IMG/VR virus record: IMGVR_UViG_3300032315_001715
Location: 124,001 to 188,000 of that record
DNA: 64,000 nt
From: a virus
Strand: one strand, 5' to 3'
Under the pieces are notes generated by a model. That model saw only the letters and a program-made list of their open reading frames with translations. It ran no database searches and was not told the DNA's origin. The translations under genes were made by a program, and so were the position numbers. Below, one piece after another: positions 3,046 to 39,710 of this stretch (positions are counted from its first letter, which is position 1; each line of letters begins with the position of its first letter).

Positions 3046-3564
3046 ATGCGCATATCTGAGATACTAGAAACCGCCGGAGTTGGATTGGTTGTACCCGGTG
3101 TTAACATGCCGAAGGGCATGCACCCAGATGAGATCCGGAGACAGGCGGCTAAGTTTGGCAACCAAGTTAGCAAGGACGGAGTCCCTCCTATTGCCAGTAC
3201 CAATGGCGACGATGCCTTAGAGGAAATCACCGACGACGATGTGATCGAGGGCTGGAGCAAGAAATACAAAAACAGCATCAATTGCAGCAATCCAAAAGGT
3301 TTTAGCCAGCGTGCCCATTGTGCTGCACGTCGCAAGAGACAACGAGGTGAAGCAACCAGCAGCCGTAGCGTAAATGAAACCGCGGTTGATGAATCTAACA
3401 CGCTGGTTGAAAAAAAGAAAAAGCCCAAGCCTACCAATCCGGCACTGTGGAGCAGAGCTAAATCGGCCGCCCGAAGCAAGTTTGAGGTGTACCCGTCTGC
3501 CTATGCCAACGCATGGGCGTCTAAATGGTATAAGAATCACGGCGGTGGATGGAGAATGGGATGA
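3046..3564 (+). CDS. DUF5872-like basic protein, candidate internal head protein
   Basis: The 172-residue product starts at the ATG 8 nt after GGAGGA; a TTG one codon earlier is less likely. It is Lys/Arg-rich and has two recognisable segments. One is near 62-102 (EGWSKKYKNSI-C--PKGFSQ-AHCAARRKRQRG). The other is a C-terminal segment (SRAKS.ARSKF.VYPSAYANAWASKWYK) typical of DUF5872 proteins in phages and viruses. The N-terminus MRISEILE-T resembles T4 capsid-targeting peptides that end in an (I/L)-x-E protease site. Function is unknown; packaging in the head and injection is an inference. It overlaps the next gene by ATGA. Confidence 0.75.
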   Translation: MRISEILETAGVGLVVPGVNMPKGMHPDEIRRQAAKFGNQVSKDGVPPIASTNGDDALEEITDDDVIEGWSKKYKNSINCSNPKGFSQRAHCAARRKRQRGEATSSRSVNETAVDESNTLVEKKKKPKPTNPALWSRAKSAARSKFEVYPSAYANAWASKWYKNHGGGWRMG

Positions 3565-3857
3565 GGATTTCAGATATAGATCCGTTGTTCGAAGCATACC
3601 AAGGTGGATTGCGCAAGTGGTTTAAACAAAAATGGGTGAACATCGGCAAGAAGAAGGGCGGTAAACATCCTGAGTGCGGTACCAGTGGTGAGGACAAAGC
3701 TTATGCCAAATGCGTACCGGCCGCCAAAGCCGCATCGATGAGCAGCAAGGACAAAGCGTCAGCAGTTAGGCGAAAACGGGCCGCACAGTCTGCGGCTGGT
3801 AGGTCAGGCAAAGACAAGCCGGGAAGCGGTAAGAAACCAATAAGAGTTAGAACCTAA
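3561..3857 (+). CDS. DUF6321-like Lys-rich small protein, candidate internal head protein
   Basis: This 98-residue basic protein is read from the ATG that overlaps the preceding stop (ATGA); an in-frame ATG four codons earlier also exists. The core has the DUF6321 pattern: W..IGKKKGGKHPECGTSG, then AKCVPAAKAASMS and SAVRRKRAAQ. The conserved Cys pair could bind metal. The N-terminus MRISDIDPLFE-A again ends in an L-x-E site. It is coupled on both sides to small genes with similar N-termini. Biochemical function is unknown. Confidence 0.75.
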   Translation: MRISDIDPLFEAYQGGLRKWFKQKWVNIGKKKGGKHPECGTSGEDKAYAKCVPAAKAASMSSKDKASAVRRKRAAQSAAGRSGKDKPGSGKKPIRVRT

Positions 3858-4036
3858 TGAAGATACGAGATTTAATCGCCGAATCTGCATATGACGGATC
3901 AAACATCAGTGTCACTGGAACCGAAAAATCCATGTTACAACGTAAGTTAAACATACGCCCTGGTACTCCAGAATGGTTTAAGCTTTGGTTTTCTAGACCA
4001 TATCTAACCAATGAAAAACCGGTCGATGATAACTAA
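3857..4036 (+). CDS. Small protein with T4-IP-like N-terminus
   Basis: A 59-residue ORF begins with an ATG sharing one base with the preceding TAA. The start MKIRDLIAE-S is very close to the capsid-targeting peptide of T4 internal proteins (MKTYQEFIAE-A). The C-terminal part contains RPGTPEWFKLWFSRPYLT, a recurrent phage motif of unknown role. It completes a three-gene coupled operon of small head-protein candidates. Confidence 0.65.
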   Translation: MKIRDLIAESAYDGSNISVTGTEKSMLQRKLNIRPGTPEWFKLWFSRPYLTNEKPVDDN

Positions 4037-4107
4037 ATCTTGGACTAATTTTTCAGCGATAACACCATTATCTTGCTAAATCATACCGCAATATAAACCC
4101 TCGTAAA

Positions 4108-4135
4108 TTGACCCAATTAGCCACGTCCGATAATA
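4108..4135 (+). promoter_or_regulatory. Possible sigma70-like promoter
   Basis: TTGACC (4108-4113) is followed by GATAAT (4129-4134) after 15 nt, or by ATAATA after 16 nt. It sits directly before the 2OG-oxygenase-like gene, which has no late motif. The short spacer limits confidence. Confidence 0.4.
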
Positions 4136-4144
4136 CTCATTTAC

Positions 4145-4735
4145 ATGCTTGAAGATCACAAAATCTGCTATTTTACAATAGAGTTGCCAAAGAACCCGAT
4201 ACGCCAGGGAACAACGTGGCCCGTTGCTGCGATCGGGAACAGCCTCGTGTCGAGGCATGGACAAGAGATTCTCTCGGATGAGATCAATGAAATATTTTCC
4301 AAATGCGGATTGATCCCGGATTCGGTATTGCTATGGACATGGAACAACCGTACCGACGGTTCTGATCATTATGCTATACACTCCGACGGACATTATACCA
4401 TGCACAATCAACGACATTGTGCGATGAACTGGCTTATCAGCGGAGCTAGCATGGTTGAATGGTGGAGCTTTAACGGAGCCACGCCAGTGTTGACCAATAA
4501 GGTCAACGAATCATTTTCATTAACGGAATGGCACTATAACAGCAGCGAGCCAACCAAGATCACCGAATGGAACGGTGAATCACCTGCGGTATTGAACATC
4601 AAACAACCGCACAGTGTTAGGGTGTTACCAAGCGCAACTGGTCCTAGAACCAGTGTAACCATTCGATTCAAGAAAAATCCACCAATTAGCGAAATGCTGC
4701 TGAGGCTTAATCAACGGATCATCAGGCTATCATGA
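4145..4735 (+). CDS. 2OG-Fe(II) oxygenase-like protein
   Basis: This 196-residue protein has the facial-triad order of the 2-oxoglutarate/Fe(II) dioxygenase or Asp/Asn beta-hydroxylase fold. H79-S-D81 lies within DHYAIHSDG, a distal H156 within QPHSVRV, and R168/R174 in RTSVTIRF could bind the 2OG carboxylate. It is separate from the 43-51 kb island but of the same broad class as three proteins there. It has a possible sigma70 promoter, and its 3' end lies in a hairpin shared with the convergent exonuclease gene. Substrate is unknown. Confidence 0.6.
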   Translation: MLEDHKICYFTIELPKNPIRQGTTWPVAAIGNSLVSRHGQEILSDEINEIFSKCGLIPDSVLLWTWNNRTDGSDHYAIHSDGHYTMHNQRHCAMNWLISGASMVEWWSFNGATPVLTNKVNESFSLTEWHYNSSEPTKITEWNGESPAVLNIKQPHSVRVLPSATGPRTSVTIRFKKNPPISEMLLRLNQRIIRLS

Positions 4736-4743
4736 TCCGTTGA
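4711..4743. terminator. Bidirectional hairpin between convergent genes
   Basis: TCAACGGATCAT (4711-4722) pairs perfectly with ATGATCCGTTGA (4732-4743) around a 9-nt loop. The stem contains the stop codon of the upstream plus-strand gene and abuts the stop of the minus-strand exonuclease. There is no U tract. Confidence 0.5.
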
Positions 4744-5430: not shown

Positions 5431-5451
5431 TTGTTGATTATACGATCCATT

Positions 5452-5973: not shown

Positions 5974-5977
5974 CGGA

Positions 5978-8470
5978 TTACCAAAGAATCTTCCACATTA
6001 TCGTTGCATTTGTCGACGGATTCGTTAAACGATTGATCTGATAACCTAGATTGGTAAAATACGTGATGATGGTATCCATCCTATCAATGTATGGTCTTGA
6101 CAGCTGATTGTTGCTGAGTTCCTGATTCTTCCACGCTTTAAAATAATCACGGCTATCTGGATATAGCCTAATACCAAATGTACCAACTCCGGCCCCAATT
6201 GATGCTGTTGCGGTTGATTGGATTCCGCCGGTGATTTGCGGCGGTGCAAGCGTTATGTTAGGTGTTGTTTCATATCCGTCACCGCCCGAAGTAACCGCAA
6301 TATTTGCAATGCTGTAGCCTCGCTGCGGTATCGTAACCGGAGGTACCGGAGTTCCGATTTGATACGGTCCTGGTATGAGATATACCGTTGGATCGGCTGT
6401 ATAGTTAACACCTTGATCAATTACCACGATACGATCTATGGTCGTTGCAGCCAGAACGGATACAGCAAGCGCGTCTCCGTCGATGGTCACCGCTGGAGGT
6501 ACATTGTAACCAGAACCGTTGGTCAACACTGAGATCGATTGTAATGTGGTCGATGCTAGCTCGCCGACAGCATCGGCGTCGATGCCGTCGCCAGCAATAG
6601 TGATGATCGGCAGATTGGTATAACCTGATCCAGGTGTTATCACGTCGATCGAAGTGATCTGGTCACCGACGATGTTTGCGGTTGCGGTGGCGTTTACCGA
6701 TGCACCGCCACCGGTTATGGTAACCGTGGCATAACTATAACCGGAACCCGTACTAATCATGTTTATCGAGAACAGTGAGGTCGGCGATAGAATTGCGGAC
6801 GCGGTTGCACCAGATCCGTTGGAAACGGTAACGTTTGGTATCGAGGTATAAAGGGTTCCCGGCACCAACACATCAAACGTCGATACATTACCGGATGATA
6901 GTACCGCACTAACCACCGCGGCTGTACCCCCCGTTAACGGCGGCTCAACTGCCACCACCGGCGGAACCGAATAACCCGACCCAGCCGTTAACACTCCGAC
7001 ATCGTTAACTCCCATAACAAGATTAAATGCAGCCAGTGTTCCGCTACCCCCGTTTACCGGATTTGATTCCAATCCCGGAAGGGCGGTATATGAACCGCCG
7101 GATTCCAGGGAATAGCTTTGTATTCTCCCTTGTGTATCAACCGCAGTAACACGTATGTAGGAATTTTCAGTTGCAACTCCGCCAGCTATCAACAGGTAGT
7201 CATCCTTGCTATAGTTGATACCGGATGATGTCATTTGTACAGAAACGACCTTCATTGATACCGTTCCCGCAGCGGCCCCTGATCCAACCGCTGTTATCGT
7301 CACCGATGGTACCGACACATAGTAATCATTCTCAACGATTTCTATAGAGTTGACGCTCGACGGGGTCATGCTAGCAATGGCAGTTGCACCATTACCGCTA
7401 TCAAAGGTCACCGAGGTTACTCCTACGTAACCATATCCGGTGTTGGTGATCAACACGGAGGTTACTGCTCCGCCGGTAACCATTGCTACCGCTTCGGCAC
7501 CGACACCGGATGGGTCCTGTATGACCACCCGCGGGGGTGCGGTGTAGCCGAGGCCCGCTGATGATATGGAAATTTCCTTGATACCCATTGTAAGATTAAC
7601 CGTAGCACCGGTGCCACCGCCGGGTAACACGGTTGTGGTTGCCCCGACTAGACCCGGTATGACCGTATAGTTACCAGGATTTGACAACACCAATGATTGT
7701 ATTTCACCGTTGGCATTAACACCTGATACCAGGGCCGTTGCAGCAACGCCAGTACCGCCTACTACCGTTATTATGTCGCCGAGATGATAGTCCATACCAG
7801 AGTTGTTAATGCTTATCCCAACCGCCGTGTATCTTACGGTATCGATGGTTGCACCAGATCCCTGGGCCACGATTTGTACCGTCGGTTGATCAGAATAACC
7901 TGCACCACCGGTGGTGTTTGCAATTGCAACAACGCTGCCCCATGATGCTAGGTATGCTCTCGCTGTTGCCGATACCGTTGGATTTCCACCGGATATGGTT
8001 ACCAACGGCGGTTGTATGTATCCGCTACCTTGTTCAGTAATGGTTATCGCTGTCAGACCCGACGTTACGTCAATCGGAACCGGACGGCCGGATAATGCAT
8101 CCGCATAGCTTGCGGCTAGCTTTATGTGATCAGGATCAACATATATCGCATAGTAATACGCATTGCTTTTTAGAGGTGCAGGAAGGGCTACCGTGCTCGA
8201 TAGGGTTATCGTATCTCCAGTTGAAAAATTATGATTCGGTATGTAAAGCTGATCAGTTAAAGGATCTATGGTCCATACCTGGTTGAACAACGCCGCACTG
8301 TTGGTCATCGGGGTATTGTTTGAAACCGTAGCTTCAAACAACCCCAGCTTAACGGCATCAAGTATTACTGATTCGATACCCCGTGCTTCGTCGTGTACGG
8401 CTCGATCTCGAAGAGGACTGTTCCTGGCTTCGTCGGCAGTGAGAAATACGCATGATCTAGACGTTGCCAT
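5978..8470 (-). CDS. Large repetitive virion protein with GSGY-type beta repeats
   Basis: The 830-residue protein starts with an unusual N-terminal domain (FLTADEARNSPLRDRAVHDEARGIE) seen in tail-associated proteins. About residues 140-740 are many degenerate copies of GSGYxxxPxVxIxGG..A.A, each 25-40 residues. The C-terminal domain (FGIRLYPDSRDYFKAWKNQ...) ends in MWKILW. The repeats should form an extended beta structure, consistent with a fibre, baseplate-peripheral or adhesin-like virion part. AGGGGA precedes the start, which overlaps the stop of the previous gene. The same repeat type occurs in the sheath (52245-56279) and in 25253-26347. Confidence 0.7.
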   Translation of the reverse strand: MATSRSCVFLTADEARNSPLRDRAVHDEARGIESVILDAVKLGLFEATVSNNTPMTNSAALFNQVWTIDPLTDQLYIPNHNFSTGDTITLSSTVALPAPLKSNAYYYAIYVDPDHIKLAASYADALSGRPVPIDVTSGLTAITITEQGSGYIQPPLVTISGGNPTVSATARAYLASWGSVVAIANTTGGAGYSDQPTVQIVAQGSGATIDTVRYTAVGISINNSGMDYHLGDIITVVGGTGVAATALVSGVNANGEIQSLVLSNPGNYTVIPGLVGATTTVLPGGGTGATVNLTMGIKEISISSAGLGYTAPPRVVIQDPSGVGAEAVAMVTGGAVTSVLITNTGYGYVGVTSVTFDSGNGATAIASMTPSSVNSIEIVENDYYVSVPSVTITAVGSGAAAGTVSMKVVSVQMTSSGINYSKDDYLLIAGGVATENSYIRVTAVDTQGRIQSYSLESGGSYTALPGLESNPVNGGSGTLAAFNLVMGVNDVGVLTAGSGYSVPPVVAVEPPLTGGTAAVVSAVLSSGNVSTFDVLVPGTLYTSIPNVTVSNGSGATASAILSPTSLFSINMISTGSGYSYATVTITGGGASVNATATANIVGDQITSIDVITPGSGYTNLPIITIAGDGIDADAVGELASTTLQSISVLTNGSGYNVPPAVTIDGDALAVSVLAATTIDRIVVIDQGVNYTADPTVYLIPGPYQIGTPVPPVTIPQRGYSIANIAVTSGGDGYETTPNITLAPPQITGGIQSTATASIGAGVGTFGIRLYPDSRDYFKAWKNQELSNNQLSRPYIDRMDTIITYFTNLGYQINRLTNPSTNATIMWKILW

Positions 8471-8835
8471 TATATCTTGTCCCCTGCCTTAATAGCATTG
8501 GTAGCTACCTTTGCGGCTGTTTTTTCAACTTTTTCCTGATTTTTGGTCTTTTCATCCTTTGCAACCACTTCCGGTTCCTCTTTCTTAAGGATGATTTTCT
8601 CATTCGGAGGAATACCGTCGATCCGTTTGAAAACCTCGGAAAATCTTTCCGTTTGTAGGAGATCCTTGATCAGATTTGAATTGATCTGAAAATGCTGGCT
8701 GCGCAACATGGAAATAACGGTTGCCATGTCGAGCTCAGTTTTCTTATCCTGTAATGCTGTGATGATGAGATCCATTAGATCGATCGAAATCTCATCAGAC
8801 ACATCATCCTCAAATATGATCTCCTTGATCAACAC
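8470..8835 (-). CDS. Small charged protein, possible head/core component
   Basis: The 121-residue protein has a helical N-terminal two-thirds (ISIDLMDLIITALQDKK...LQTERFSEVFKRIDG) and a Lys/Glu-rich, Ala-rich tail. The start MLIKEIIFE-D contains an I-x-E processing-like site. It sits between two large virion candidates with 1-7 nt spacing. No known family is recognised. Confidence 0.6.
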   Translation of the reverse strand: MLIKEIIFEDDVSDEISIDLMDLIITALQDKKTELDMATVISMLRSQHFQINSNLIKDLLQTERFSEVFKRIDGIPPNEKIILKKEEPEVVAKDEKTKNQEKVEKTAAKVATNAIKAGDKI

Positions 8836-8841: not shown

Positions 8842-11800
8842 TTATCCTCGTGCAGCACGATTGATGGCGCTGGTAAAGCTTTCCGGTTCAATCATTCTTG
8901 GATTATTGATCATGTCGGCCTTGAGTTCAAGCCAGTATGCTCGTGCATCTGCACTTTCAAACATCTTCTTGCTCTTTCGACCGCTCTTGGTGGTATAGAT
9001 CACACCATATGGTGTAATGTTTTTGACTTCTTCCAGTGCGGCAGCCTTGTTGAGGCTTTCAATTGTTCGTAGCATGCCGATCACACCTTCTTGCATCTGC
9101 TGGCGAATGGTGTTCTTAGCTGCGGCAATCGTCTTGTTAACAACTGCGATCCTGTCTAGTATCGAGTCGCCTTCGAGACCGTATCCCATCTGTAGAGGAT
9201 CAGATGCCGTACCTTCCTTGAGCAACGACTTGAATTCATTGCGATGTGCAAGCATTTGAGCTTCAAGCTGCTGTAGCTCAACCTTGGCTTCAGCAAGTGC
9301 CTTTCCGGTACTTACAAAGCTTTCGTCCTTCTTGCCGAACTGCTTCCATGCAGTTGCATAAAGAACTTCCTGCCAGCGATTGCCATAACGCTTTTTGAAA
9401 TCATCCTTGTTGCTCTTGATGAAATCCTCGGCCTTCTTGCCAGGGGGTGCAGTTTCTTCGACCTCAGATTCGTTGACCTGCTTTGACAGCTTCTTTATTG
9501 CTGCCTTTGCGTTTGCGATTTCCTTGTTGAGATCCTTATTGCCTAGGTTTACACCGCTGGCCTTTTGCTTCTCAAGCTTCTTCAGTTCGGCCTTCTTGTT
9601 GTTGAGATCTCTTGTCGAGGCGCTGATCTCGGAGTCTAGTGCTTCGTCAACCTCTTCCTTCTTGGTGTTGTCTGCTTTCTTGTTCTTTGCCTTGGCCTTC
9701 ATCTTTTCGATGTTTTTCTTGAAAGCATCTGGTATCTTGCCCTCGGTTAGCCCTGGATTTGCACGCATGATGCGAGCCTTCGGTAGGGTCATTTCTGATC
9801 CATCTGGCTTCTTAAGGGTTATCTTGTCTCCGTCAATTTTAATGATCTCGTATCTCGGTGTTGCCTTTGGATTGGTCACATTGACCTTTTTACCAACAGC
9901 TAGGCTTTCGGCAACCTCATCCTTTTTAGCACGACCGAGAGGTTCGGTTTCACCCTGGGCTGCTGTTGGCCCAGTTTCAGTGCCAATTGCAGCTAGATCG
10001 GCTGATATGTCACTATCATCACCTTCTTCGCCGCCCTCGGTACCAGCGCTTTCAATGTCCGATGTAGCGGCAGGTATTCCTCCACTGTTAAGGGTATCGA
10101 TGGCTGCGTCCATCGTTTCTTTGGTGTTGGTAGTAACCTTCAACAGCTCGTCCAGCGCAGCTTTAACGGTGCTGTTGAATCCCATAGCAACTTCTTGGCC
10201 AAACTGGCTACGCATGATGTTAACTAGCGGCATTAGATCCTCAACGCTCATCTTGGCAACGTCTTCAGCAATATCCTGAACATTGGTGCTCATGTCCTTG
10301 GCTGCTAGTATCGTTGATGCTTTGGCGAGGTCTTCTTGTTCAGAAAGATTTTGAATTGATTCAACGACTTCCTTGCGAGTGGCCTTTATGCCGTCTGCAA
10401 AATGATCGTCCATCGCATGCTGCTCAAACTGCACATAATCCATGTAGTGCTTGCATGAGCTGATGCATTCGCTAGCCGTGGTCAGCTTCATTGCGACCCA
10501 TCCCTCGAGCTTGTCTCCTGGCTTGATCATTTCAAATAGCTTGATTGAGTACTCCATGATCAGCATGAGGTTCTGTCGAGAAACACCGCCGCTGGTCTCG
10601 CCAAGGCCAGCATCCTCATCACCCTCTGGAAGTTCTTCTGGCTCAAACTTCTTGTAGTAATCGAGGTAATGATATACCTTATCAAGCAAACCTGCAGCCT
10701 TGGTAAGTGCGCCAGCGATCCACGGCTGTACCTCAGCTTGCGGATCGATCTGCTTCAACATGCTCATGGCATACTTGGAGTTACGATAAAGCTCACTGCG
10801 AGACATGCTAGCCTGGTATTCATAATGATGCGCATGTCCAACGGCCTTCCCGCCCGCTGGTAAAGTTAGTTGGCCTGTTGCAGCAGGAGCACCAGACGGC
10901 TCATCGATCATGTTTTCCATTATCGATTCATCGCCAGCACTTTCCTTGTTGTATTCCTTGTCCTTGGTCTTGGCAATCGCAGCAGGCTTTGGCATTCCGC
11001 CGGCAACCATTCGGGCAATTTGCACATCAGCGAAATCCTTATCACCGTCCTTGTCTTGGTCGACGCTGGCCTCGCTAACGGTAAGTCCGGCCTTCTTTGC
11101 GGTATTGGACACTATGTTTTGAAGTCTTGTTAGATCAGCCGGATCTAGATTGATCTTGGATGCCACCCGTGGCATTGCCTTCATGATAACTTGTAGATCG
11201 CTCTTGGTAATCCCTGTTGGTCCAAACGAGGTCTTCAATGTGGTGATTTTATCCCCAACCTTGCTGATGGCATTTAGATCAGCCAACACCGTTTCGTCCT
11301 TGCCGCCCATCATCGATGCATCGATGCCGGGATTTTGGCTATAGTCCATCATGGCCCTACCAAGCTCAGCAAAGAGATCCAGCATCGATGCTTGTTCCGA
11401 AAGTCCGCTCGGTGACTCGCTAACGGCAGCTTGCTTTGCAAACATTGCCTTGGCGTATGCCTTGACCTTTTGTTCGTTAGCTGTCAACGGAGACTGGAAT
11501 GCAGTGCCTTGGTTCACTAGCTTTTCACCAACGCGACTAAATGCGTTCATTTTTCTAAGGGTAGCGTCGTCGGTACCCCGTTGATCCTGTGACCATTGCA
11601 TCATAGCACGGCCAAGCGATATGTTGTCATTGAGATCTGGGCTCATAGTTTCTTCCATGCTTGTTTCGGTTGATTCGGCCATCCTGCGGCGACGCCTCTT
11701 TGGCGCAAGCTCCGTAAGCATGATCCTAACGGCCTCTAGGATCAGCATGCTCTTGATGTATTCTGGATTTTGTTGGTAGCTGTTGAAGCTGCTTTCCGAA

Positions 11801-11991
11801 ACGATCTCATCACGCTTGGTTTCCCAAGACGTTTTGCATTCGTTGAGGAATTCTTCCGTAGACGGTGAATCTAGGTTAATGCTCATTTGGACCCCATAAA
11901 CGTTCTTAAGGGTCGATATTATCTGATTAAGCCTGGCCTCGCCCGACGTTTCAAAGTAGTTAAGATACATTCTAACAGAACTCCCGGCCAT
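8842..11991 (-). CDS. Very large multidomain virion/internal protein
   Basis: The 1049-residue protein is modular. A helical N-terminus (1-100) ends in RRRRR. Next come repeated LGRAMMQWSQD and LGRAMMDYSQN units (about 125 and 211), a DKDGDKDFADVQIARM segment (about 310), a helical SRSELYRNSKYAMSML module (about 395), an acidic linker, a KOW-like segment (KKVNVTNP..YEIIKIDGDKITLKK, about 700) and a C-terminal KSNKDDFKKRYG..W segment. Composition is helical, polar and highly charged, as in internal or scaffold proteins. A perfect TATAAATA late box lies 26 nt upstream. An alternative start at 11970, preceded by GGGAG, is plausible. Confidence 0.65.
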   Translation of the reverse strand: MAGSSVRMYLNYFETSGEARLNQIISTLKNVYGVQMSINLDSPSTEEFLNECKTSWETKRDEIVSESSFNSYQQNPEYIKSMLILEAVRIMLTELAPKRRRRRMAESTETSMEETMSPDLNDNISLGRAMMQWSQDQRGTDDATLRKMNAFSRVGEKLVNQGTAFQSPLTANEQKVKAYAKAMFAKQAAVSESPSGLSEQASMLDLFAELGRAMMDYSQNPGIDASMMGGKDETVLADLNAISKVGDKITTLKTSFGPTGITKSDLQVIMKAMPRVASKINLDPADLTRLQNIVSNTAKKAGLTVSEASVDQDKDGDKDFADVQIARMVAGGMPKPAAIAKTKDKEYNKESAGDESIMENMIDEPSGAPAATGQLTLPAGGKAVGHAHHYEYQASMSRSELYRNSKYAMSMLKQIDPQAEVQPWIAGALTKAAGLLDKVYHYLDYYKKFEPEELPEGDEDAGLGETSGGVSRQNLMLIMEYSIKLFEMIKPGDKLEGWVAMKLTTASECISSCKHYMDYVQFEQHAMDDHFADGIKATRKEVVESIQNLSEQEDLAKASTILAAKDMSTNVQDIAEDVAKMSVEDLMPLVNIMRSQFGQEVAMGFNSTVKAALDELLKVTTNTKETMDAAIDTLNSGGIPAATSDIESAGTEGGEEGDDSDISADLAAIGTETGPTAAQGETEPLGRAKKDEVAESLAVGKKVNVTNPKATPRYEIIKIDGDKITLKKPDGSEMTLPKARIMRANPGLTEGKIPDAFKKNIEKMKAKAKNKKADNTKKEEVDEALDSEISASTRDLNNKKAELKKLEKQKASGVNLGNKDLNKEIANAKAAIKKLSKQVNESEVEETAPPGKKAEDFIKSNKDDFKKRYGNRWQEVLYATAWKQFGKKDESFVSTGKALAEAKVELQQLEAQMLAHRNEFKSLLKEGTASDPLQMGYGLEGDSILDRIAVVNKTIAAAKNTIRQQMQEGVIGMLRTIESLNKAAALEEVKNITPYGVIYTTKSGRKSKKMFESADARAYWLELKADMINNPRMIEPESFTSAINRAARG

Positions 11992-13000: not shown

Positions 13001-13001
13001 A

Positions 13002-14874: not shown

Positions 14875-16686
14875 TTACTGGCGTTTAGACCTCTTCTTCT
14901 TGGTTTTCGTCGGTGCGGTCCCAGCTGGACCAAAGAAGCTCTGCCCAGCCGGCATGCGTCGTATTACTGGCATCATTGGGCCACCGAGGCCGCTTGCAAC
15001 GCTAGCAATGCTACCAGATGACGTTGATCCCGCAGAGGACATCTCCCGTAGATCAGCAGACTTTGCAAATCCGGGCTTTGGAGTAAACGGCGGCGACGAC
15101 GGATCATTTAGATTTTGCCACTTGTTATCACCAACCTTTTTCAGCCGAACATCCACGTCCTTGCCGGTCTTTGGATCCTTGATCGTTCTATTAACCACGG
15201 TACCGATGGGATCCGTTCCGCGATTAACCGCCGTTGACGTTTGATCCGATACCACTTTCTCCCAATAGGCAACAAATGCATCCTTGCCTTTTTCCTTGAA
15301 GATCTTCTCAGCAGCAGCATCAATATCCGCAACACCGCTTTTGAATGGAACCTCAGCAGCCGGTGACCCGGCGCCTAAATCGCTTGCTATGTCATTTTGA
15401 TCAACACCAACCTTGGTCAGCACACCTTTGATCAGATCGTCTGAAATGCCACCTCGGCGTAGTATCTTAACGATGTTTGCACTATCGATTGGTCGGCCAG
15501 CTGCATTCCACAGCTTTTCCAGCTTGTCAGCGGTAACCTTGGTGGTAATGTTTTTTCCAATCTGTGCTGCTTTAGCAGCAGCTTTACCTGCAAGACCTTT
15601 AAGCGCATCAAGCGGTCCTTCTGACATGGAAAAGATCTCAAGTACCTGGGATTCGCTAAGATTGCCTGGTTTGGTTCTATCAACCGATGTTGCAGCGGCT
15701 GTTGCTCCTTGCACACCGGCAACGATCTGTCCTATGACTTTTCTGGTATTAGCAATGTCATCTCTTGCCTGTGCATACAGAGTTTGATTGTTTATCAAGG
15801 CATCGTCGATGACCTTTTGTAGCTCCGCGTTGGTTAATATTTCCTTCAATCGAGCCAATCCATTTGCACCGCGATTGAAGTTACCGTTACGCATCTCTTC
15901 AACCGATGCGTTGAACAGCACGCGGACCCTGGTTTGTAGCTCGGCTGGAATGAAGGAATTGAATTCAAACATGGTAACACCGTTGACCACATATCTCATT
16001 TCAACCCGTCGCAGGGAAACATATCCTGGTATCTTCGCCACGTCTAGCGTTAGATTCGAGAACATCTCAGCAACACCTTTGGCACCGAGGCCGGCAATGT
16101 AACCTATCACCCCTGTCTTGGCACCCCGTCCGACGGCTGTTGATAGTTTTTCTCCCTTGAGCAGTTCAACCGAACCCCGTAGTATTTGACCGGCGATGGC
16201 GCCAGCACCCGGTCCGCCACTGACGCTGGCCACGGCTGTTAGCACACCAACGACGAACGCTGTTTTTCCGGGATTTTCCTTGGCAAACTTACCAAGCGCA
16301 TCAACGCTTTTGATAACAGCCGAATCCTCGCCAAGCTTGTCGGTGATGGTTGATTTTAGTTTCTCAAATTTTTGATCGAAAAATTTAACAGGTGCGGTAT
16401 CCTGCAGCCATTTTCCGGCGGTTGACAGCAATTCCTGCGCACGAGTACCGGCATCAACGGTTTTACCAGCAAGAGTTCGATTTTTTCCTAGATCAGTAAC
16501 GGTCCGTTCAACATCGGAAAACACGTCCTTGATCTGAGAAGGACTTAACGTGGCTTCAATTAGGGGTCTAAAATGATTATACAATCCCTCGATCACCAAC
16601 CGTTGATCGGGAGTGGTACCAACACATACCGTTTCTAACAGTGCTGCCTTTCTTGGATTTGATTCGATCAGATTTTGATATCTCAT
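14875..16686 (-). CDS. Large candidate internal/ejected protein with glycine-rich hydrophobic segments
   Basis: The 603-residue protein starts MRYQNLIE-S, another L-x-E capsid-targeting-like peptide. Residues 142-168 (FVVGVLTAVASVSG then GAGAIAGQIL) and 190-203 (TGVIGYIAGLGAKG) are glycine-rich hydrophobic stretches able to insert in membranes. The rest is helical and charged, and the last 60 residues are Ser/Gly/Pro-rich with a basic KTKKKRSKRQ end. This fits an internal head protein ejected into the host envelope, though no family is recognised. It overlaps the downstream-coded partner by ATGA. Confidence 0.6.
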   Translation of the reverse strand: MRYQNLIESNPRKAALLETVCVGTTPDQRLVIEGLYNHFRPLIEATLSPSQIKDVFSDVERTVTDLGKNRTLAGKTVDAGTRAQELLSTAGKWLQDTAPVKFFDQKFEKLKSTITDKLGEDSAVIKSVDALGKFAKENPGKTAFVVGVLTAVASVSGGPGAGAIAGQILRGSVELLKGEKLSTAVGRGAKTGVIGYIAGLGAKGVAEMFSNLTLDVAKIPGYVSLRRVEMRYVVNGVTMFEFNSFIPAELQTRVRVLFNASVEEMRNGNFNRGANGLARLKEILTNAELQKVIDDALINNQTLYAQARDDIANTRKVIGQIVAGVQGATAAATSVDRTKPGNLSESQVLEIFSMSEGPLDALKGLAGKAAAKAAQIGKNITTKVTADKLEKLWNAAGRPIDSANIVKILRRGGISDDLIKGVLTKVGVDQNDIASDLGAGSPAAEVPFKSGVADIDAAAEKIFKEKGKDAFVAYWEKVVSDQTSTAVNRGTDPIGTVVNRTIKDPKTGKDVDVRLKKVGDNKWQNLNDPSSPPFTPKPGFAKSADLREMSSAGSTSSGSIASVASGLGGPMMPVIRRMPAGQSFFGPAGTAPTKTKKKRSKRQ

Positions 16687-17348
16687 GGGGTTGTTCCTTT
16701 GAGCTTGGCTAGCTCTTGTTTGATTTTATCGATCACGGTCTGGTCAAGCTTGCTAGCAGCAGGTTGGGGCTGCGTCGCCTCTGGTGATCTTGCTAGCTGT
16801 TGCTCTGGTTCATCGTCGGGCATTTCTTGTGATCGATCGCTACGTTCTAGCCATTTAATCGCACCCAGTTCTAGGAGATAGGTTACGGCAATTTCAGCAC
16901 GTTTTGCTGAATCCGTATCATCTGGTCCCCCGATCAGCTGCGAACTTTTAGACCAGGTCTGTTTCATCACATCGGTAGATATCCGCTGACTTGGTGCGGA
17001 TCCGCCGACTTGCTTGCTTGTTTGCTTGGAAATGAGATCAAGTATTTTTGATTGAACCGTTTGGTCCTTGAATATCTTGGTAATCTCGGTACCGGTTAAC
17101 CCGAGCTGATCAGGCATGGAAAGATACTTGTATAGAGTGTTCCATGTTACCGTGTCCCATTTTTGGCCATTACGGCCCATGTGCTGGGTGAAGTTTTTCT
17201 TAGCGTCAAGCAATACCTTTGAAACCTCAGCTTTTCCTCGATGACGCGCACTGACCACGCCGGCTAGGGCATTTCCAACCAATCCAACATAATCTTTCAG
17301 GCCTTCTTTAACCGACCCAGGATCCTCGCTAATTTGCCCGATTTTCAT
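16683..17348 (-). CDS. Hypothetical candidate internal protein
   Basis: The 221-residue protein begins MKIGQISE-D and has a helical basic core (LLDAKKNFTQHMGRNGQKWDTVTWNTLYKYL) and a variable Gln/Pro-rich linker near 165-195. It overlaps genes on both sides by ATGA, so it is made with the 603-residue protein and the 81-residue protein. Its function is unknown. Confidence 0.6.
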   Translation of the reverse strand: MKIGQISEDPGSVKEGLKDYVGLVGNALAGVVSARHRGKAEVSKVLLDAKKNFTQHMGRNGQKWDTVTWNTLYKYLSMPDQLGLTGTEITKIFKDQTVQSKILDLISKQTSKQVGGSAPSQRISTDVMKQTWSKSSQLIGGPDDTDSAKRAEIAVTYLLELGAIKWLERSDRSQEMPDDEPEQQLARSPEATQPQPAASKLDQTVIDKIKQELAKLKGTTP

Positions 17349-17676: not shown

Positions 17677-18471
17677 ATGAAACAACCGTTAGCAGAGGAC
17701 ATCCGAAGCATTCTTAATAAATTAGACGAGTATATCACCTCCGTGCAGGAAGATGACCGTGTTGATACCGACGAAACATTGGATGAACAAGGTGAGACTA
17801 GCAACCCAAAAAATCCAAAGGGCGATGATGCTGCAAATGAACCGGTGGACAAAATGCTCACCAAGCCAGCTGATCTAGAAAAGATCGTCGGAAACATCAA
17901 TGTCCAGTCATTGATCACCATGTTAGAGATTCCAGAAGACCATGTTGCCAATTTCAAGAGCGCAATAAACGCTCTCAGGCATGACGAGCCACGCCTCTCT
18001 CAAGCACAGGCCATGGCACTTGCCATCGCATTCAATCACATGATGACCCTCGGTTCTACCGAAAAGACCAAAATAGCGACCACAATCCGACCGGTCACGG
18101 GTGTTATCGAAAATTTGGATGATAATAAGCTCAAGTCTTACATTGCCAAGGATCAGTCGTCAGCTTCATCCCCCGATACCATTTCCCAAATGAAATCCAT
18201 GATCGATGCCGTGAAAAATCACGGCACTCCGACCGAGAAAAAAGAAATCGGTCTAAACGAAAACAGCGTTGAGATCATCGGCTATAACAGCGGACACGGC
18301 GAAAAGCTAGACGTGGTAGCACAGGATCCAAAGCGACGACGCAAGGTTGAAATGATCCAGCTACGACTGGGCGATCGCGGACAGCCAGAATTGGTATTCA
18401 AGGATACCGACGGAGACAAATACGTCGCCGATTGGAATACAAAATACGGATGGGTTGCAGATTTTGACTAA
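17677..18471 (+). CDS. Hypothetical candidate internal/core protein
   Basis: The 264-residue protein starts MKQPLAE-D, an L-x-E processing-like N-terminus. An acidic disordered segment (20-65) follows, then a helical domain (80-175) and a C-terminal beta-rich domain (VEIIGYNSGHGEKLDVV ... DGDKYVADWNTKYGWVADF). A late box precedes it and a strong hairpin follows. No known family is recognised. Confidence 0.6.
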   Translation: MKQPLAEDIRSILNKLDEYITSVQEDDRVDTDETLDEQGETSNPKNPKGDDAANEPVDKMLTKPADLEKIVGNINVQSLITMLEIPEDHVANFKSAINALRHDEPRLSQAQAMALAIAFNHMMTLGSTEKTKIATTIRPVTGVIENLDDNKLKSYIAKDQSSASSPDTISQMKSMIDAVKNHGTPTEKKEIGLNENSVEIIGYNSGHGEKLDVVAQDPKRRRKVEMIQLRLGDRGQPELVFKDTDGDKYVADWNTKYGWVADFD

Positions 18472-27057: not shown

Positions 27058-29607
27058 TTAATAGGTAATCTTTGTCTGGGTAAACGGATACTCAACCGAC
27101 TCGTAGAACTTCTTCCGCTTTAAAAGGTGGCGGTTAGAAAACTTGCACTTGCTTGATACGTCGAATATCTCAACGGCTTCCTTGTCATCAGCCTTTCGGA
27201 GTCCTCGTCCAATGCTCTGGATCACGCGCACAAAGCTCTTACCAGGTTCGATGAGAACCAAGTTGAATATTCGATTGATGCTGATGCCTGTGCTGGTGGT
27301 GCCATATGTGGCGATCATTATGGCATTATCAGCCAAGTTAATCTCCTTGTATGCCTCCTTGCGTTTGGTACTCTTCATCTGTCCACTAATAAAGGTCGAA
27401 CCATCGATGAGCTCGTGTAATATGTCACCGGTCTCGATCCTATCCACCAAGATCAGTGTGTTACCGCTTTCGGATATCTCCTGTATCTTTCCAGCCAGCC
27501 ACGTTAATCGATCTCGGTTGGTAACAAGATACTTGAGCTCGCTCTGATAGTCGTTGTAAACGACCGCATCCTGTGTTTGCAAGATGTTCACATGGCACTG
27601 GGCTAGATATCCTTTATCTTGCAATTCCTTGGCACTGAGCTTGCCAATGATTGGCCCGATGGCGCTGTAAAGACTGACCTGGTTGTATTCCTCTTCCGGA
27701 ATGGTACCAGTTAATCCCCAACGAATAGGTATGTTGGAAAATACCGTGGTTAATAGATTATGCAACACATTCATGTTCTTCACGCTGTGGACTTCGTCGC
27801 AAATTACCGCAACCAATCCGTCCAGAAACACCGTTAGCTGGTCGTCGTCAAGCGCATCCTTGCTTTTCTTGTCAAGGACCATGAGGCTCTGCCAGGTGCA
27901 GATCGTGTGCGTACGAGTGTATTCCTTGCGATCACCATATAGCACGCCAACGTCGAGACCGATGTTTCGATAATCCTCTTCCGTTTGCTGCACGAGATTT
28001 TTGTTCGGAACGATGACTATGGTACGCCCATATTGCTCGGCTAACTTGCTGAGGCTTGCGGTAATGATCGTATTATGAGTTACAACATATCCATCTGTTA
28101 GATATAGATGGTCTGGATGGTCGACCATAATACACCGAACCGGCTCGTTAGATACCTTTTTGATATCAATAATATGAAGCATTGGCGCCCGTCTCACAAC
28201 TCTAGATGATACACGGTCAATCTTCCTGGGCATTGTAACCAGTATACCAGGCGTTGGATGGTATATAGACACGTTATAAATATCCTTGCAAGGTGTCATT
28301 TCTCCCTTATAACGATACATCCGATTGGTGCCTGCGGTGACATTAGCAATACCCCCGATGCTATGGAGCAGTTTTGCAAATCCATCGGCCAATTGTTGGC
28401 TAGTTGTTGTGAACGAAATGCATCCACGTTTGTCAACATATCCGTCAGTATCCAGAAGACCTTGTACCAACGACAGTCTTTGCGAATAGCTACTATTGAG
28501 ATATATAGGCGGTATAAACTTGGTATGACTATACGCCCCCTTTAGGCCAAGTTCTTCGATACGTGCCTTGTAGATGTGGTATGTTGGTTTTTTGATATCG
28601 GGCTGTGCATTGATATCACGCATCCATTCAGATCTTGCTTCCATATGAAGCTCATTTGAGCCAAATGAAATACTATAATCATATCGATCCTTGTGTTTTA
28701 GAACATATCTTGGGTCAAGCTTAGATGAGATCTTATCGACAATGAACTGATCAGCCGTTGAGATGCCAAAATTATCTCTAAATGATCCATCTCCGAGTAA
28801 TGCTCCTAGTAAGTACGGATCAATTGGTAAGTCTATATCGTTCGTCGTATCGAATACCATCGTTGGTAACGGGACTGACAGCGTCCGTTGATTGGTCCGT
28901 TGATACTCAATGATCTCCTTCAAGGAGATCACCTTCCATTTTTCAGTCCAATTGTGATTATGTACCTTCCATAAGTGCTCATCGCATGATCGTACCTTGC
29001 GACCGTCCTCAAATGTGATCTCATACACATCCTTTGGATCATGATCAAAGATTCCACTGACAACAGCCGAAGATCCGTCGGGTATCGCGACGAGATCACC
29101 TATCATGATATCTCCCATTGCCTTCCAACCACCAGGAACCTTAACGAGGCTCGATAGAGGTTGAGCCTTACCTGCCGATGTTGGGGCAATGCTGATGCCT
29201 TGCAGATTGCCAACGCACTCATTGATGGCCTGTATTTGATAGTCTCGTAGCATGATCGGTTGGCCGGCCATTCGATGGTCCGCCGGCCAGTTGATATGGC
29301 TTAGAAAGTTCTCGTTAACCTCGTGGAATTCAAACTCGTGCTTGGCACGATGATCCTGTATTTCAATTTCGTACCCGTTGTCGATAACAACCGGCAATAT
29401 CTTATCCAACAGGTTAAGATAGGTGCGGCCACCTAGGGTGCAAAAGCTCTGGGTGCCGTCCCATCTGCCCAAACGATAAGCCGGGCTATATCTTGCATGT
29501 GGGAGGAAATACTTGACCGCGTTAACACACGCTCGCCTGGTTACAAGATCCAAGCCGTCAATCTTTGCTGTACATTCGTCGACTATGACTATTTCTGCTT
29601 TTTTCAC
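27058..29607 (-). CDS. uvsW: UvsW-like superfamily 2 helicase interrupted by an intein
   Basis: The 849-residue precursor starts with GTG after GAGGATT. The N-extein has the UvsW domain (1-115), followed by the RDYQ motif (121-124). The Walker A motif APTSAGK-T is split at residue 147 by a 365-residue intein (148-512). Downstream come the DEVH box, the WGLTGTIPEEE motif and the C-terminal helicase domain. The mature protein would be 484 residues, close to T4 UvsW (503). UvsW remodels recombination intermediates and R-loops. Without splicing the ATP site is broken, so activity depends on the intein. Confidence 0.92.
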   Translation of the reverse strand: MKKAEIVIVDECTAKIDGLDLVTRRACVNAVKYFLPHARYSPAYRLGRWDGTQSFCTLGGRTYLNLLDKILPVVIDNGYEIEIQDHRAKHEFEFHEVNENFLSHINWPADHRMAGQPIMLRDYQIQAINECVGNLQGISIAPTSAGKAQPLSSLVKVPGGWKAMGDIMIGDLVAIPDGSSAVVSGIFDHDPKDVYEITFEDGRKVRSCDEHLWKVHNHNWTEKWKVISLKEIIEYQRTNQRTLSVPLPTMVFDTTNDIDLPIDPYLLGALLGDGSFRDNFGISTADQFIVDKISSKLDPRYVLKHKDRYDYSISFGSNELHMEARSEWMRDINAQPDIKKPTYHIYKARIEELGLKGAYSHTKFIPPIYLNSSYSQRLSLVQGLLDTDGYVDKRGCISFTTTSQQLADGFAKLLHSIGGIANVTAGTNRMYRYKGEMTPCKDIYNVSIYHPTPGILVTMPRKIDRVSSRVVRRAPMLHIIDIKKVSNEPVRCIMVDHPDHLYLTDGYVVTHNTIITASLSKLAEQYGRTIVIVPNKNLVQQTEEDYRNIGLDVGVLYGDRKEYTRTHTICTWQSLMVLDKKSKDALDDDQLTVFLDGLVAVICDEVHSVKNMNVLHNLLTTVFSNIPIRWGLTGTIPEEEYNQVSLYSAIGPIIGKLSAKELQDKGYLAQCHVNILQTQDAVVYNDYQSELKYLVTNRDRLTWLAGKIQEISESGNTLILVDRIETGDILHELIDGSTFISGQMKSTKRKEAYKEINLADNAIMIATYGTTSTGISINRIFNLVLIEPGKSFVRVIQSIGRGLRKADDKEAVEIFDVSSKCKFSNRHLLKRKKFYESVEYPFTQTKITY
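28072..29166 (-). mobile_element. Ala1 intein with LAGLIDADG homing endonuclease in the UvsW Walker A motif
   Basis: The 365-residue intein begins AQPLSSLVKVPGGW-MGDI-GD and ends LTDGYVVTHN, followed by Thr as +1 residue. Ala at position 1 replaces the usual Cys/Ser, as in the alternative splicing mechanism of class 2 inteins. Blocks C and E, LLGALLGDGSF (about 119-129) and LVQGLLDTDGYV (about 233-244), are the two LAGLIDADG motifs, each with an Asp. The HEN domain therefore looks intact. The terminal His-Asn for cyclisation is present. Insertion between GK and T of a P-loop is a classic conserved target site. Confidence 0.92.
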
Positions 29608-34489: not shown

Positions 34490-34526
34490 CCGCTAGCTCC
34501 AGTCAATTAACGATCTGGAACATTTT

Positions 34527-36437: not shown

Positions 36438-36461
36438 GTTAAACTCCGTAAATGCGTTGGA

Positions 36462-36468: not shown

Positions 36469-38066
36469 CTAATCATTATCGAGAACGGCATTGGGTCACG
36501 ATGATCGTTGGCTTCATCGCCATCAAACACATCTTTCATCATTTCGCCAACACGATCGTCCCAGTTGGTGACCATCTGCATCATTCGAACACACAGCATG
36601 GTGCTCATCACGCAGTCATCATTCTCTCCGGATTTAGCCGCAAAACTGTCTCCCTTTGCTACAAAGAACTTGAGCTGGCGTACCAACATCTTGCTTTGTA
36701 TCTTAAGCTTGTTGCTTTCGACCAAGCTTTTCAGCTTGGTACAAGCACTGGATTTGCTTCGACCATTGGTATTGAGCCCCTTGCGTAGTCTCACCGTACC
36801 CGGACGCCGGGGCTCGTGTAGGAATTGACCGCTGAAATTTTCCTCGCCGATGTCGCTGACGGTTTGCAATGCAGCTTCGCCCCATGAGTTGTTTTCCAGG
36901 GTGAAGTATATTTCCGGTTCTCCCTTGAATCCAGTTTTCTTGATTTCCTGGTAAATGGCATTGATGATGGTTTGCATGGTTCGAACTTGATTTGGTATGC
37001 CAACCTTGTTGGAATTCCATTCAGCTATCTGCATCATATCAGGTAGGCTCCATACCTGTATGCAAGCACCATCCTTGCCGACTCCGGCACTGGGATCCAA
37101 GCTTACGAGATAAATGCGATCCGATGTTACCTTGTCATACCACCGAACGTCGCCGTGGGTCTTGAGTATCGGATCAACCCCTCGCAATCGTTGCAGCGTT
37201 AGGCTGCTGATAAGCGAACTCTCTTCACCTGCAAACACACATTCGTATTCTCGTTGGAACTTTTCCAGTCCTATTTTTGCACGCTCGGTTGCTGCCCATT
37301 GTTCATCTCGACCCGGGACTTCGCTGTAGTGTGCCGTGACCGCCTTGAATCCATTAACTCCCATGCCGCCCGGTATGTCATTGCCGTCCTCATCAACCGT
37401 TGCTGTAGCACCGTGCCATATCTCAGCAAACATGTCCTCATCAGACGCCGGTGTTGATGTAATGATGCATTTACCACCAGTTGCTAGGGTCGGTGCCATT
37501 GCTGACCAAAATTCGGTTGCCATCCTTGGCTTAACGAACGCAAACTCGTCCAAATAAAGCAAGCTAATCGCCAATCCTCGACCAGAGTCCGGAGTTGTAG
37601 TCGTTGCGATTATTCGACTGCCGTTGTCAAATCGTATGCTGGTCACGTTATATTCAACAACGCCCGGCCGTATATAATTTGGTAACTCCTCGTATGCATA
37701 CTTGATGCGCATCATGATCTCATTAGCAGCCTTGAACTTGTTTGCTGCGATCAGCACGGTTACATCCGGGTTAAACGATGCATACCAAAGCAGGTATCCC
37801 GCCGCGGTTGTTGTCTTGCCACTCTGTCGCGGGATCATTGCGATGGTATTTCTAAATGACCAATATGTTTTTACTAAATCTTTTTGGAATGGATATGCTT
37901 CAAACGGTATCTTACCCTTGGTAGGATGCTGGATGAACATGTGCTTTTCCATGAAATAGATCGGATCCTGCGCGCAGCGGACGAATTCCTGTATCTGTTC
38001 CGGAGTGTATGTCGTTGGTTGATTTGCGGGCTTGAGCTTCTCAAAGTCCGTGTTATTCTTTGCCAT
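36465..38066 (-). CDS. 17: Terminase large subunit, T4 gp17 type
   Basis: The 533-residue packaging motor and nuclease has the adenine/Q motif (PFQKDLVKTY), Walker A IPRQSGKTT (about 78-86), Walker B LLYLDEFAFV and the coupling TSTPAS. The RNase-H-like nuclease domain has SLDPSAGVGKDGA, the ENNSWG region and DDCVMST. T4 gp17 is 610 residues. It docks on the portal and cuts the concatemer. A GAGGA ribosome site precedes the start. Confidence 0.95.
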   Translation of the reverse strand: MAKNNTDFEKLKPANQPTTYTPEQIQEFVRCAQDPIYFMEKHMFIQHPTKGKIPFEAYPFQKDLVKTYWSFRNTIAMIPRQSGKTTTAAGYLLWYASFNPDVTVLIAANKFKAANEIMMRIKYAYEELPNYIRPGVVEYNVTSIRFDNGSRIIATTTTPDSGRGLAISLLYLDEFAFVKPRMATEFWSAMAPTLATGGKCIITSTPASDEDMFAEIWHGATATVDEDGNDIPGGMGVNGFKAVTAHYSEVPGRDEQWAATERAKIGLEKFQREYECVFAGEESSLISSLTLQRLRGVDPILKTHGDVRWYDKVTSDRIYLVSLDPSAGVGKDGACIQVWSLPDMMQIAEWNSNKVGIPNQVRTMQTIINAIYQEIKKTGFKGEPEIYFTLENNSWGEAALQTVSDIGEENFSGQFLHEPRRPGTVRLRKGLNTNGRSKSSACTKLKSLVESNKLKIQSKMLVRQLKFFVAKGDSFAAKSGENDDCVMSTMLCVRMMQMVTNWDDRVGEMMKDVFDGDEANDHRDPMPFSIMIS

Positions 38067-38078
38067 GAGTCCTCGTCA

Positions 38079-38327
38079 TTACGAATTTAAGTTGATGATC
38101 TCATCAACCGAGCGCCAAGTTTTACGGCGCCCATCAGCTATACTTAGCAGCACTTCGAATATGACAGCATCTATGTTGTGTTTCCAATGATATAGGAAAC
38201 GATTGGTTCGTAAAAGATCGGGAAGGTGATCCTCATAACCCCACGTAAATTCTTGCAACAAAGTGGGATGCTTTGGCATGTAATATATTATCTGTAATAA
38301 TACAGGCCTTACGTTGGTTATAAGCAT
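38079..38327 (-). CDS. Conserved small protein upstream of gp17
   Basis: The 82-residue protein shows the segment VRPVLLQIIYYMPKHPTLLQEF and W..D.LPDLLRTNRFLYHWK, known as a conserved small protein near packaging genes of T4-like phages. The role is unknown. It starts after GGAGG with a short 4-nt spacer; a GTG one codon earlier would have no spacer. Confidence 0.6.
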   Translation of the reverse strand: MLITNVRPVLLQIIYYMPKHPTLLQEFTWGYEDHLPDLLRTNRFLYHWKHNIDAVIFEVLLSIADGRRKTWRSVDEIINLNS

Positions 38328-38347
38328 CACTCCTCCATTTTCTTGTC

Positions 38348-38917
38348 CTATTTCAGCGCCGGCTGGCGCTTGATGGTGCTCATTGGGCTGTGGCTGCCGT
38401 CATCAACGACTGGCTTACCGGCCAACGGATCTTTGTCGAAATCCTCAATGTCGGGATCGCTCAGCGGGCTCATAATGCCGTCGTCGTTTTCCCGCGACTC
38501 TTCAGCTAGAAACAATCGATATGCGTCTGATAGATTCATATAAATTGATCGTGCTGCTTCGTTGATCGGATCGTTTAGAGTATTGTCTCCATTCTTACCG
38601 AAGTGCTGAGGCAGGCGATCAGCGGTCCATGTGTAGGTATCTGCATCAACCTCATTACCGGTATCAGACTGTCTGTTATGGCCATAATCAAACTCCGCCG
38701 TTTCTTCAGCGAGGTCGTCACCCATATCATCAACAGCGGTTGGCGCAGCCGGAGGATCCACCGGCTCCATGACCGGAGGTGCTGACATCGGTACTGCTAC
38801 CGGTGCGGCCTTTAGACCTGCTAGCTGCACTATGCGTGCAACTTCGTCAGCGTCAACGCTGTCAACATCAATATTAGTTGTATCGCTCGTTACTTTGAGC
38901 TGATAATGTCTGTCCAT
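38348..38917 (-). CDS. Hypothetical protein with acidic disordered middle
   Basis: The 189-residue protein has a short N-terminal motif DADEVARIVQLAGL (LAG-type, recurring here), an Ala/Pro/acidic disordered region (40-90), then TYTWTADRLPQHFGKNGDN and helical IYMNLSDAYRLFLAEES. It lies between the small packaging genes and a candidate internal protein with 1-nt spacing. Function is not known. Confidence 0.6.
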   Translation of the reverse strand: MDRHYQLKVTSDTTNIDVDSVDADEVARIVQLAGLKAAPVAVPMSAPPVMEPVDPPAAPTAVDDMGDDLAEETAEFDYGHNRQSDTGNEVDADTYTWTADRLPQHFGKNGDNTLNDPINEAARSIYMNLSDAYRLFLAEESRENDDGIMSPLSDPDIEDFDKDPLAGKPVVDDGSHSPMSTIKRQPALK

Positions 38918-38918
38918 G

Positions 38919-39710
38919 TCACTTTTTCTCCATTGGCTTTAGCACCTGCTCGGCCTTGCCGGTCTTCGGGTCCTTGAAGAACTTGACCTGCGGGATAGCG
39001 TCATCAGACATGGTGCCTGTATTGTTCAACCACTTGCTGTCAACCGGGGTAGAATCATCTCCCTTGGTGATTGGCATTGGTGCACCCTTGATGTGGGTAT
39101 TGAAATTTGTGGTATCCTGACGTGGCTCACCCGGCGCGATGTCCTCCATCTGTATCCAACTAAACAACGGAGCTGGCGGATCAACTTCCATCGTTGGACG
39201 AGAATCTGCAACTCCTGCTAGATATGTCAGCAGCTTGTTGTTGTATTCATTGCCAAACAAGTCGTCGGTCTTTGGTTGCTCAGCATCAGTATATTCGCGA
39301 TCGGTGCTGAGACGTGCTGCTGATATTTCGTTCTTTTTATCCGCCTCCGCATTTGCCTTGCGTTCCCAGGCATCAAACTGAGAATACATCTCAATTGGTT
39401 CGTTTTGGCTTCGAACAACCATCATCTTTTCACTGACGTTTGCAGCATCCTTGAGATCCTGCAATAAAATGTATTGGCTTATCGGTACTCCGAGAACAAC
39501 CTTCATTGAATGCACATTGCGATTTTGTACGTCTATGAAATCCTTGTGATTATCGTCAACCACAACCGGCGCTATCAGTTCCTTGAGATCGTATTTTTTT
39601 AGCCACGATTCGATGGTCCCAACCTGTTCGTCAGCAGGCTTGGTTGCAAACTTGATAAAATAAACGTAGGACTTGGCGCTTTCTGCGAGATAATCCCTGA
39701 AATTCTTCAT
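38919..39710 (-). CDS. Candidate internal head protein with T4-like capsid-targeting peptide
   Basis: The 263-residue protein starts MKNFRDYLAE-S, near-identical in pattern to the T4 IP/CTS sequence MKTYQEFIAE-A with an L-A-E cleavage site. The rest has a folded N-terminal domain (YVYFIKFATKP.DEQVGTIESWLKKYDLKELIAP...) and a disordered C-terminal half. A late ATAAATA box overlaps the stop of the gp16-like gene upstream. Packaging in the head is inferred. Confidence 0.65.
   Translation of the reverse strand: MKNFRDYLAESAKSYVYFIKFATKPADEQVGTIESWLKKYDLKELIAPVVVDDNHKDFIDVQNRNVHSMKVVLGVPISQYILLQDLKDAANVSEKMMVVRSQNEPIEMYSQFDAWERKANAEADKKNEISAARLSTDREYTDAEQPKTDDLFGNEYNNKLLTYLAGVADSRPTMEVDPPAPLFSWIQMEDIAPGEPRQDTTNFNTHIKGAPMPITKGDDSTPVDSKWLNNTGTMSDDAIPQVKFFKDPKTGKAEQVLKPMEKK

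Follow-up and report, generated by a model that had tools for sequence, protein, structure and literature searches.

Predicted T4-type capsid-targeting propeptides on unrelated proteins of a giant phage related to Atu_ph07

The 64,000-nucleotide window analyzed here, bases 124001-188000 of a virus record of 452,799 bases in full (IMGVR_UViG_3300032315_001715), contains eight genes whose products start with short peptides ending in (I/L)-x-E, referred to below as tags. Very probably, these N-termini are T4-type capsid-targeting propeptides. Such short propeptides would pull proteins into the prohead core during assembly and be cut after (I/L)-x-E by the gp21-like peptidase S77 prohead protease; the mature proteins would remain in the head beside the DNA and pass via the tail into the host at infection. 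From the pattern, its excess over chance, the protease, the starts of the head genes, and selection on the tag, we infer that these particular proteins are packaged, cut, and injected, packaging being well supported. An earlier sequence-only reading of the window had proposed such propeptides, and this part of it stands, given the matching S77 protease, the tag-specific conservation, and a virion-protein cluster in phage Atu_ph07. Its parallel with T4 was also borne out, as internal proteins IPII and IPIII both start MKTYQEFIAE-A (the hyphen marks the cut, here and below). The effector role that it suggested for DUF5872 and DUF6321 proteins remains conjectural; these are small, strongly basic, and at least equally similar to T4 internal proteins.

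By terminase, the record phage falls near two jumbo myoviruses with T4-like heads, Phosso (Sinorhizobium) and Atu_ph07 (Agrobacterium), and window positions 4744-43363 are syntenic with 28-92 kb of Atu_ph07. Genes were called with a simple home-made caller on overlapping stretches, and start codons are predictions. Coordinates prefixed G000 follow whole-record numbering, L labels denote other stretches or relatives' contigs, and the sequence-only reading named minus-strand genes by their 5' ends.

Excess of tagged starts and the prohead protease

Across the full record, 466 genes of ≥60 aa were called, and in 53 of them an [IL]xE had its Glu at residues 6-12, compared with 29.1±5.0 expected from shuffling of residues 2-30. 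With K/R additionally required at residue 2, the count was 20 versus a shuffled 3.5±1.9 (maximum 12, 2000 shuffles), or versus 6.2±2.3 (maximum 19) when shuffling kept residue 2 fixed; the K/R criterion came from the sequence-only reading's own list, and the comparison without it is the unbiased figure. Independent of this criterion are the cross-genome tests and the bias at P1′, the residue after the Glu, which was A, S, D, T, N, or G in 15 of 18 K/R cases versus 40% at internal [IL]xE sites (Fisher p=3e-4). The first 200 kb of phiKZ, a jumbo phage with a protease of different cut motif, gave no excess, either for [IL]xE (18 versus 15.0±3.6) or with K/R (0 versus 1.8 expected). Half of the T4 genome (70-169 kb) contained 18 sites versus 11.1±3.1, which is no strong enrichment; used by itself, this blunt statistic would overlook a phage in which few proteins are tagged. 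A common origin of the tagged proteins was rejected: all-against-all BLASTP of 24 tagged bodies detected no body-to-body match at E<=0.01, and the tag is therefore not a remnant of common descent.

A gene for a peptidase S77 of the gp21 type is located at G000:202757-203404 (E 2.4e-26), with its PF03420 domain (90.4 bits) at G000:202892-203332. Alignment to T4 gp21 revealed that the His and Ser motifs (LGE..HP and GVSSRG) are kept. The protease itself starts MRNQNLLIE-T and T4 gp21 starts MNEPQLLIE-T, both ending in LLIE-T. Beside the protease gene, the scaffold (MEKEIKDLLE-T) and the major capsid protein (MSKNLFE-T) bear the pattern; in the major capsid proteins of the record phage and Atu_ph07, LFE or LME stands directly ahead of a conserved NAT. 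T4 head genes start in the same manner (gp22, MLKEQLIAE-A; gp24, MAKINELLRE-S). T4 gp23 is trimmed by 65 residues, and ten residues of IPIII are enough for packaging, positions 4 and 7 serving targeting and 8 and 10 processing (PMC9026906).

In Atu_ph07, 29 proteins of coding sequences (CDS) 31-76 were detected in the virion by electrospray ionization tandem mass spectrometry (ESI-MS/MS) (PMC6102473). This stretch was placed by matching the published gp numbers (portal, prohead core, capsid, sheath, and head-completion) to CDS order. The site was found in 20 of its 44 called genes versus 4.2±1.9 expected, and 13 tagged genes had K/R at residue 2 versus 0.6 expected, an excess that is partly due to ADP-ribosyltransferase (ART)-like paralogues, which are not independent. 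Outside three virion clusters of the same genome, the counts were 40 of 399 versus 30.1±5.1 and, with K/R, 6 versus 3.8±2.0.

Tagged proteins of the window and selection on the tag

All eight N-termini in the sequence-only reading were present as open reading frame (ORF) starts, each at the position it had been assigned. They are listed with their genes and with an untagged neighbor.

3046-3069, plus strand: predicted propeptide MRISEILE-T; gene 3046-3564, 172 aa, DUF6321-like core and N-half of DUF5872
3561-3593, plus strand: predicted propeptide MRISDIDPLFE-A; gene 3561-3857, 98 aa, DUF5872-like, mature isoelectric point (pI) 10.7
3857-3883, plus strand: predicted propeptide MKIRDLIAE-S, based on the pattern alone; gene 3857-4036, 59 aa
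8809-8835, minus strand: predicted propeptide MLIKEIIFE-D; gene 8470-8835 (GTG start), 121 aa
16663-16686, minus strand: predicted propeptide MRYQNLIE-S; gene 14875-16686, 603 aa, mature pI 9.7
17325-17348, minus strand: predicted propeptide MKIGQISE-D; gene 16683-17348, 221 aa
17677-17697, plus strand: possible propeptide MKQPLAE-D; gene 17677-18471, 264 aa, acidic
39681-39710, minus strand: predicted propeptide MKNFRDYLAE-S; gene 38919-39710, 263 aa
8842-11991, minus strand: 1049-aa neighbor without an N-terminal tag; phrog_14154, E 3.7e-12

The tag on gene 38919-39710 is nearly certain to be genuine. Its family carries the annotation virion structural protein (head and packaging). Identity within it reaches 71% over residues 2-11 versus 33-35% over the remainder, so that the tag is the best-conserved part, and MKNFRDYL[AIT]ES is nearly invariant among relatives that are ~30% identical elsewhere. 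This conservation indicates that the tag is under selection. For Atu_ph07 AUZ94910 (L010:34393-35148), the start has been annotated at too late a position; the complete ORF gives MKTLQDYLTE-S, the orthologue of the 39710 tag.

The tag on gene 3561 is supported by many relatives, in which MRYEEIISE, MRASEFITE, MLINEILNE, or MRAHEFIME stands ahead of a common YQGGLRKWF body, the pattern being kept and the sequence not. For genes 3046-3564, 3857-4036, 8470-8835, 14875-16686, and 16683-17348, a genuine tag is plausible to likely. Relatives sharing the domain of gene 3046 have starts resembling a capsid-targeting sequence (CTS), for example MLIREITE-G and MHLAELYTVELLE-A, and its octamer MRISEILE also starts the unrelated gene G000:198421-199287 (MRISEILE-A). 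Syntenic counterparts of gene 8470-8835 start MRLIDLLE-S in Atu_ph07 and MRLSEIINE-S in Phosso; one relative of gene 14875-16686 (L211, 68% identical) aligns starting at residue 1; and the weakly aligned syntenic counterparts of gene 16683-17348 start MTNDIRKHMDMLNE-A in Phosso and MRQLDE-E in Atu_ph07. Of the eight tags, that of gene 17677 is the least secure: its syntenic counterparts in Atu_ph07 and Phosso do not keep MKQPLAE, and this tag could be due to chance. Many further tagged genes are located beyond the window in the same record. The family matched by the untagged gene 8842-11991, phrog_14154, bears the same annotation, virion structural protein (head and packaging), as the 39710 family, and the gene is syntenic with AUZ94856, inside the Atu_ph07 virion-protein cluster.

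Genes 3046 and 3561 are related by profile comparison to DUF5872 (PF19197), each singly below the Pfam cut-off of 27.5 bits. Gene 3561 matched profile positions 53-92 with 18.9 bits and the end of gene 3046 matched positions 1-38 with 16.6 bits, and the model appears to be split across these adjacent genes (window 3046-3857). In a smaller number of DUF5872 relatives, the sequence drifts while the cut site is kept, as in the superoxide dismutase (SOD) presequences described below. DUF6321-like domains occur directly behind the tag in 50-residue proteins and also inside long tagged proteins; no DUF6321 model matched in the libraries searched, and the name is that used in the sequence-only reading. 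Neither the DUF proteins nor the 39710 family matched any NCBIfam model, and in the openly accessible literature DUF5872 appears only as a gene name (subscription journals were outside the search). The mature products of genes 3561 and 3046 share small size and strong basicity (pI 10.7 and 9.8, respectively) with T4 internal proteins, and an effector role of the DUF proteins is no more likely than an association with DNA within the head.

Elsewhere in the window, gene 27058-29607 (minus strand) encodes a UvsW-like helicase with an apparent intein of about 350 aa right behind the Walker A lysine. By eye, positions 43418-51966 contain GNAT, asparagine-synthase-like, fatty-acid-desaturase, Rieske, and 2OG-oxygenase-like genes side by side, suggestive of a cluster for tailoring or biosynthesis. 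Genes 1829-2968 and 62325-63140 both resemble the Atu_ph07 tRNA nucleotidyltransferase.

Tagged enzymes and the fate of the cargo

The tagged proteins of the record phage comprise about 20 unrelated products, including basic internal-protein-like ones (3046 and 3561) and enzymes. Beyond the window, G000:338877-339425 (=L026:16877-17425) encodes an Fe/Mn SOD that opens with MRFQHILE-A ahead of the SOD domain; both Pfam matches are above cut-off (Sod_Fe_C, 68.8 bits, cut-off 20.9; Sod_Fe_N, 45.5 bits, cut-off 27). Its relatives from 80 viral loci provided 47 distinct presequences, very diverse in sequence and length, and [IL]xE was present in 36 of these versus 14.1±2.9 expected (maximum 24, 2000 shuffles). 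With P3 widened to I/L/V/F/M/T, there were 43 cases; the Glu lay 9-13 residues ahead of the domain in 41 of them, and the residue after the Glu in the viral presequences was mostly A, S, G, or T. Solved cellular SODs align with the viral ones from about residue 13-16 onward. Since the sequence drifts freely while the cut site stays fixed, the presequence is predicted to be a removable propeptide. Published MIJ3 proteomics names four proteins only and has no bearing on SOD.

The ART-like protein G000:110897-111730 contains the motifs YRGQ, LSWTSDP, and QSEFIL, and among four orthologues M1, E13, and S14 are the sole invariant positions in the first 14 residues. Fold comparison of a model with pLDDT 70.6 led to no consistent assignment, and the ART-like label is therefore taken from the motifs only. 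In Atu_ph07, about 10 tagged ART-like paralogues lie one behind the other in an array (L009:39484-49507) and start M[RK]W.QL[TN]E, with the tag among the best-conserved parts of the alignment and with YRG, CTTS-like, and E-V/I motifs; one paralogue, of 778 aa, additionally carries a zeta-toxin-like kinase domain. PF03496 did not match the ART-like proteins (T4 Alt matches at 4.4e-38), and neither of the two ART-like alignments found a match among PDB chains by sequence search. In structure comparison, the 12 best VIA rows for the array were all ART-superfamily chains with low Z (2.3-4.5), and the array probably belongs to that superfamily. The gene sharing its first octamer with gene 3046, G000:198421-199287 (=L005:11421-12287), is DUF5591/archaeosine-synthase (ArcS)-like. 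The SOD, ART-like, and ArcS-like proteins, all encoded beyond the window, are the better effector candidates. The related phage contigs L157, L155, and L174 encode tagged proteins that by eye resemble NAD-synthesis nucleotidyltransferases, e.g., MFAHELYE-QNKPRVIVTYPGRFQPFHQGH.

On balance, we lean toward a broader interpretation in which the T4-type tag of Rak2/Atu_ph07-like giant phages is a general cargo code for a large, fast-changing, and unrelated head cargo, including SODs and ART-like arrays. The first host-directed wave would then enter with the DNA, and the set could be read from N-termini in uncultured phages. The openly accessible literature contains no link between CTSs and this group (subscription journals were outside the search), and novelty is provisional.

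A serious competitor, to which we give somewhat less than an even chance, is that the tag is a CTS and the cargo is only structural, acting in assembly or DNA condensation and not as injected effectors. The two small, strongly basic, internal-protein-like DUF products would fit this, as would the filing of the 39710 family and gene 8842-11991 under head and packaging and the presence of the same motif on T4 scaffold and core proteins. However, the tagged enzymes (SOD, DUF5591/ArcS-like, and ART-like proteins) have no obvious assembly role, and T4 Alt and IPI are injected and active in the host (PMC9026906).

The peptides could instead target a replication compartment or membrane, with (I/L)-x-E as part of the signal and no cut; the cut is predicted here and not observed, and the Phosso orthologue of 39710 keeps the start without the Glu. 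We consider this improbable, as no positions of the SOD and ART-like families are more constant than the Glu and the small residue that follows it, and the protease and capsid genes start in the same manner as their T4 counterparts. Least probable of all is that the N-termini are ordinary short amphipathic starts with E, frequent in phage proteins: about 29 of the genome's 53 sites are expected by chance and single cases such as 17677 and 13236 (MKTLIE-Y) may be explained in this way, but chance is refuted for the whole set by the excess in the record phage and the Atu_ph07 virion cluster, set against none in phiKZ and a slight one elsewhere in Atu_ph07, and by orthologues that keep the pattern while their sequence drifts.

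Several observations weigh against T4-type propeptides that are cut and packaged. The virion mass spectrometry comes from the relative Atu_ph07 and not from the record phage, and its 29 virion proteins are available as a gene range and not per tagged protein. The Phosso start, MKNFYEYLSS, lacks the Glu at P1, the residue ahead of the cut. The S77 gene was detected in 17 of 40 related contigs tested, most of which are fragments. At DUF5872/DUF6321 loci the site was present in 41% versus 23% of neighboring genes (p=0.001), a modest excess that vanishes once K/R at residue 2 is required; this control is not clean, as start choice is uncertain and the neighbors are themselves tag-rich, which partly explains the weak excess.

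Comparison with known systems

Giant-phage genes are mostly without known function, and the tag yields a testable list of head-borne, probably host-entering proteins that can also be drawn up for genomes known from metagenomes alone. It widens the T4 CTS system, which serves a few proteins, to about 20, places tens of viral SODs in the predicted virion, and gives the DUF5872 and DUF6321 families a predicted location, if not yet a function.

The T4 CTS system (IPI, IPII, IPIII, and Alt, cut by gp21) and the tags described here have in common their length, K/R near the start, a hydrophobic-x-Glu end, a small residue after the cut (predicted here), an S77 protease, and unrelated cargo. They differ in that T4 has a handful of tagged proteins and the record phage about 20, in that the cargo of the record phage is unrelated to the T4 internal proteins, and in consensus, which in the record phage is closer to M-[KR]-[ILW]-x-[DEQ]-[IL]-[IL]-x-E. 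A virus bringing its own SOD in the particle has a parallel in the chloroviruses, algal viruses with a virion SOD; that enzyme is of the Cu/Zn type, whereas the phage enzyme, its place in the particle predicted from sequence, is of the Fe/Mn type with a propeptide.

Atu_ph07 CDS 31-76 form a syntenic block with the same tag and the same protease. The block differs in holding the ART-like array, where the record phage has other tagged genes, and propeptides are not reported in the accessible text of the Atu_ph07 paper (PMC6102473). phiKZ lacks the short-tag excess, and the propeptides of phiKZ and SPN3US are mostly >100 residues with the motif A/S-x-E; the inner head proteins of these phages are cut after Glu by the prohead protease and ejected (PMC5694885).

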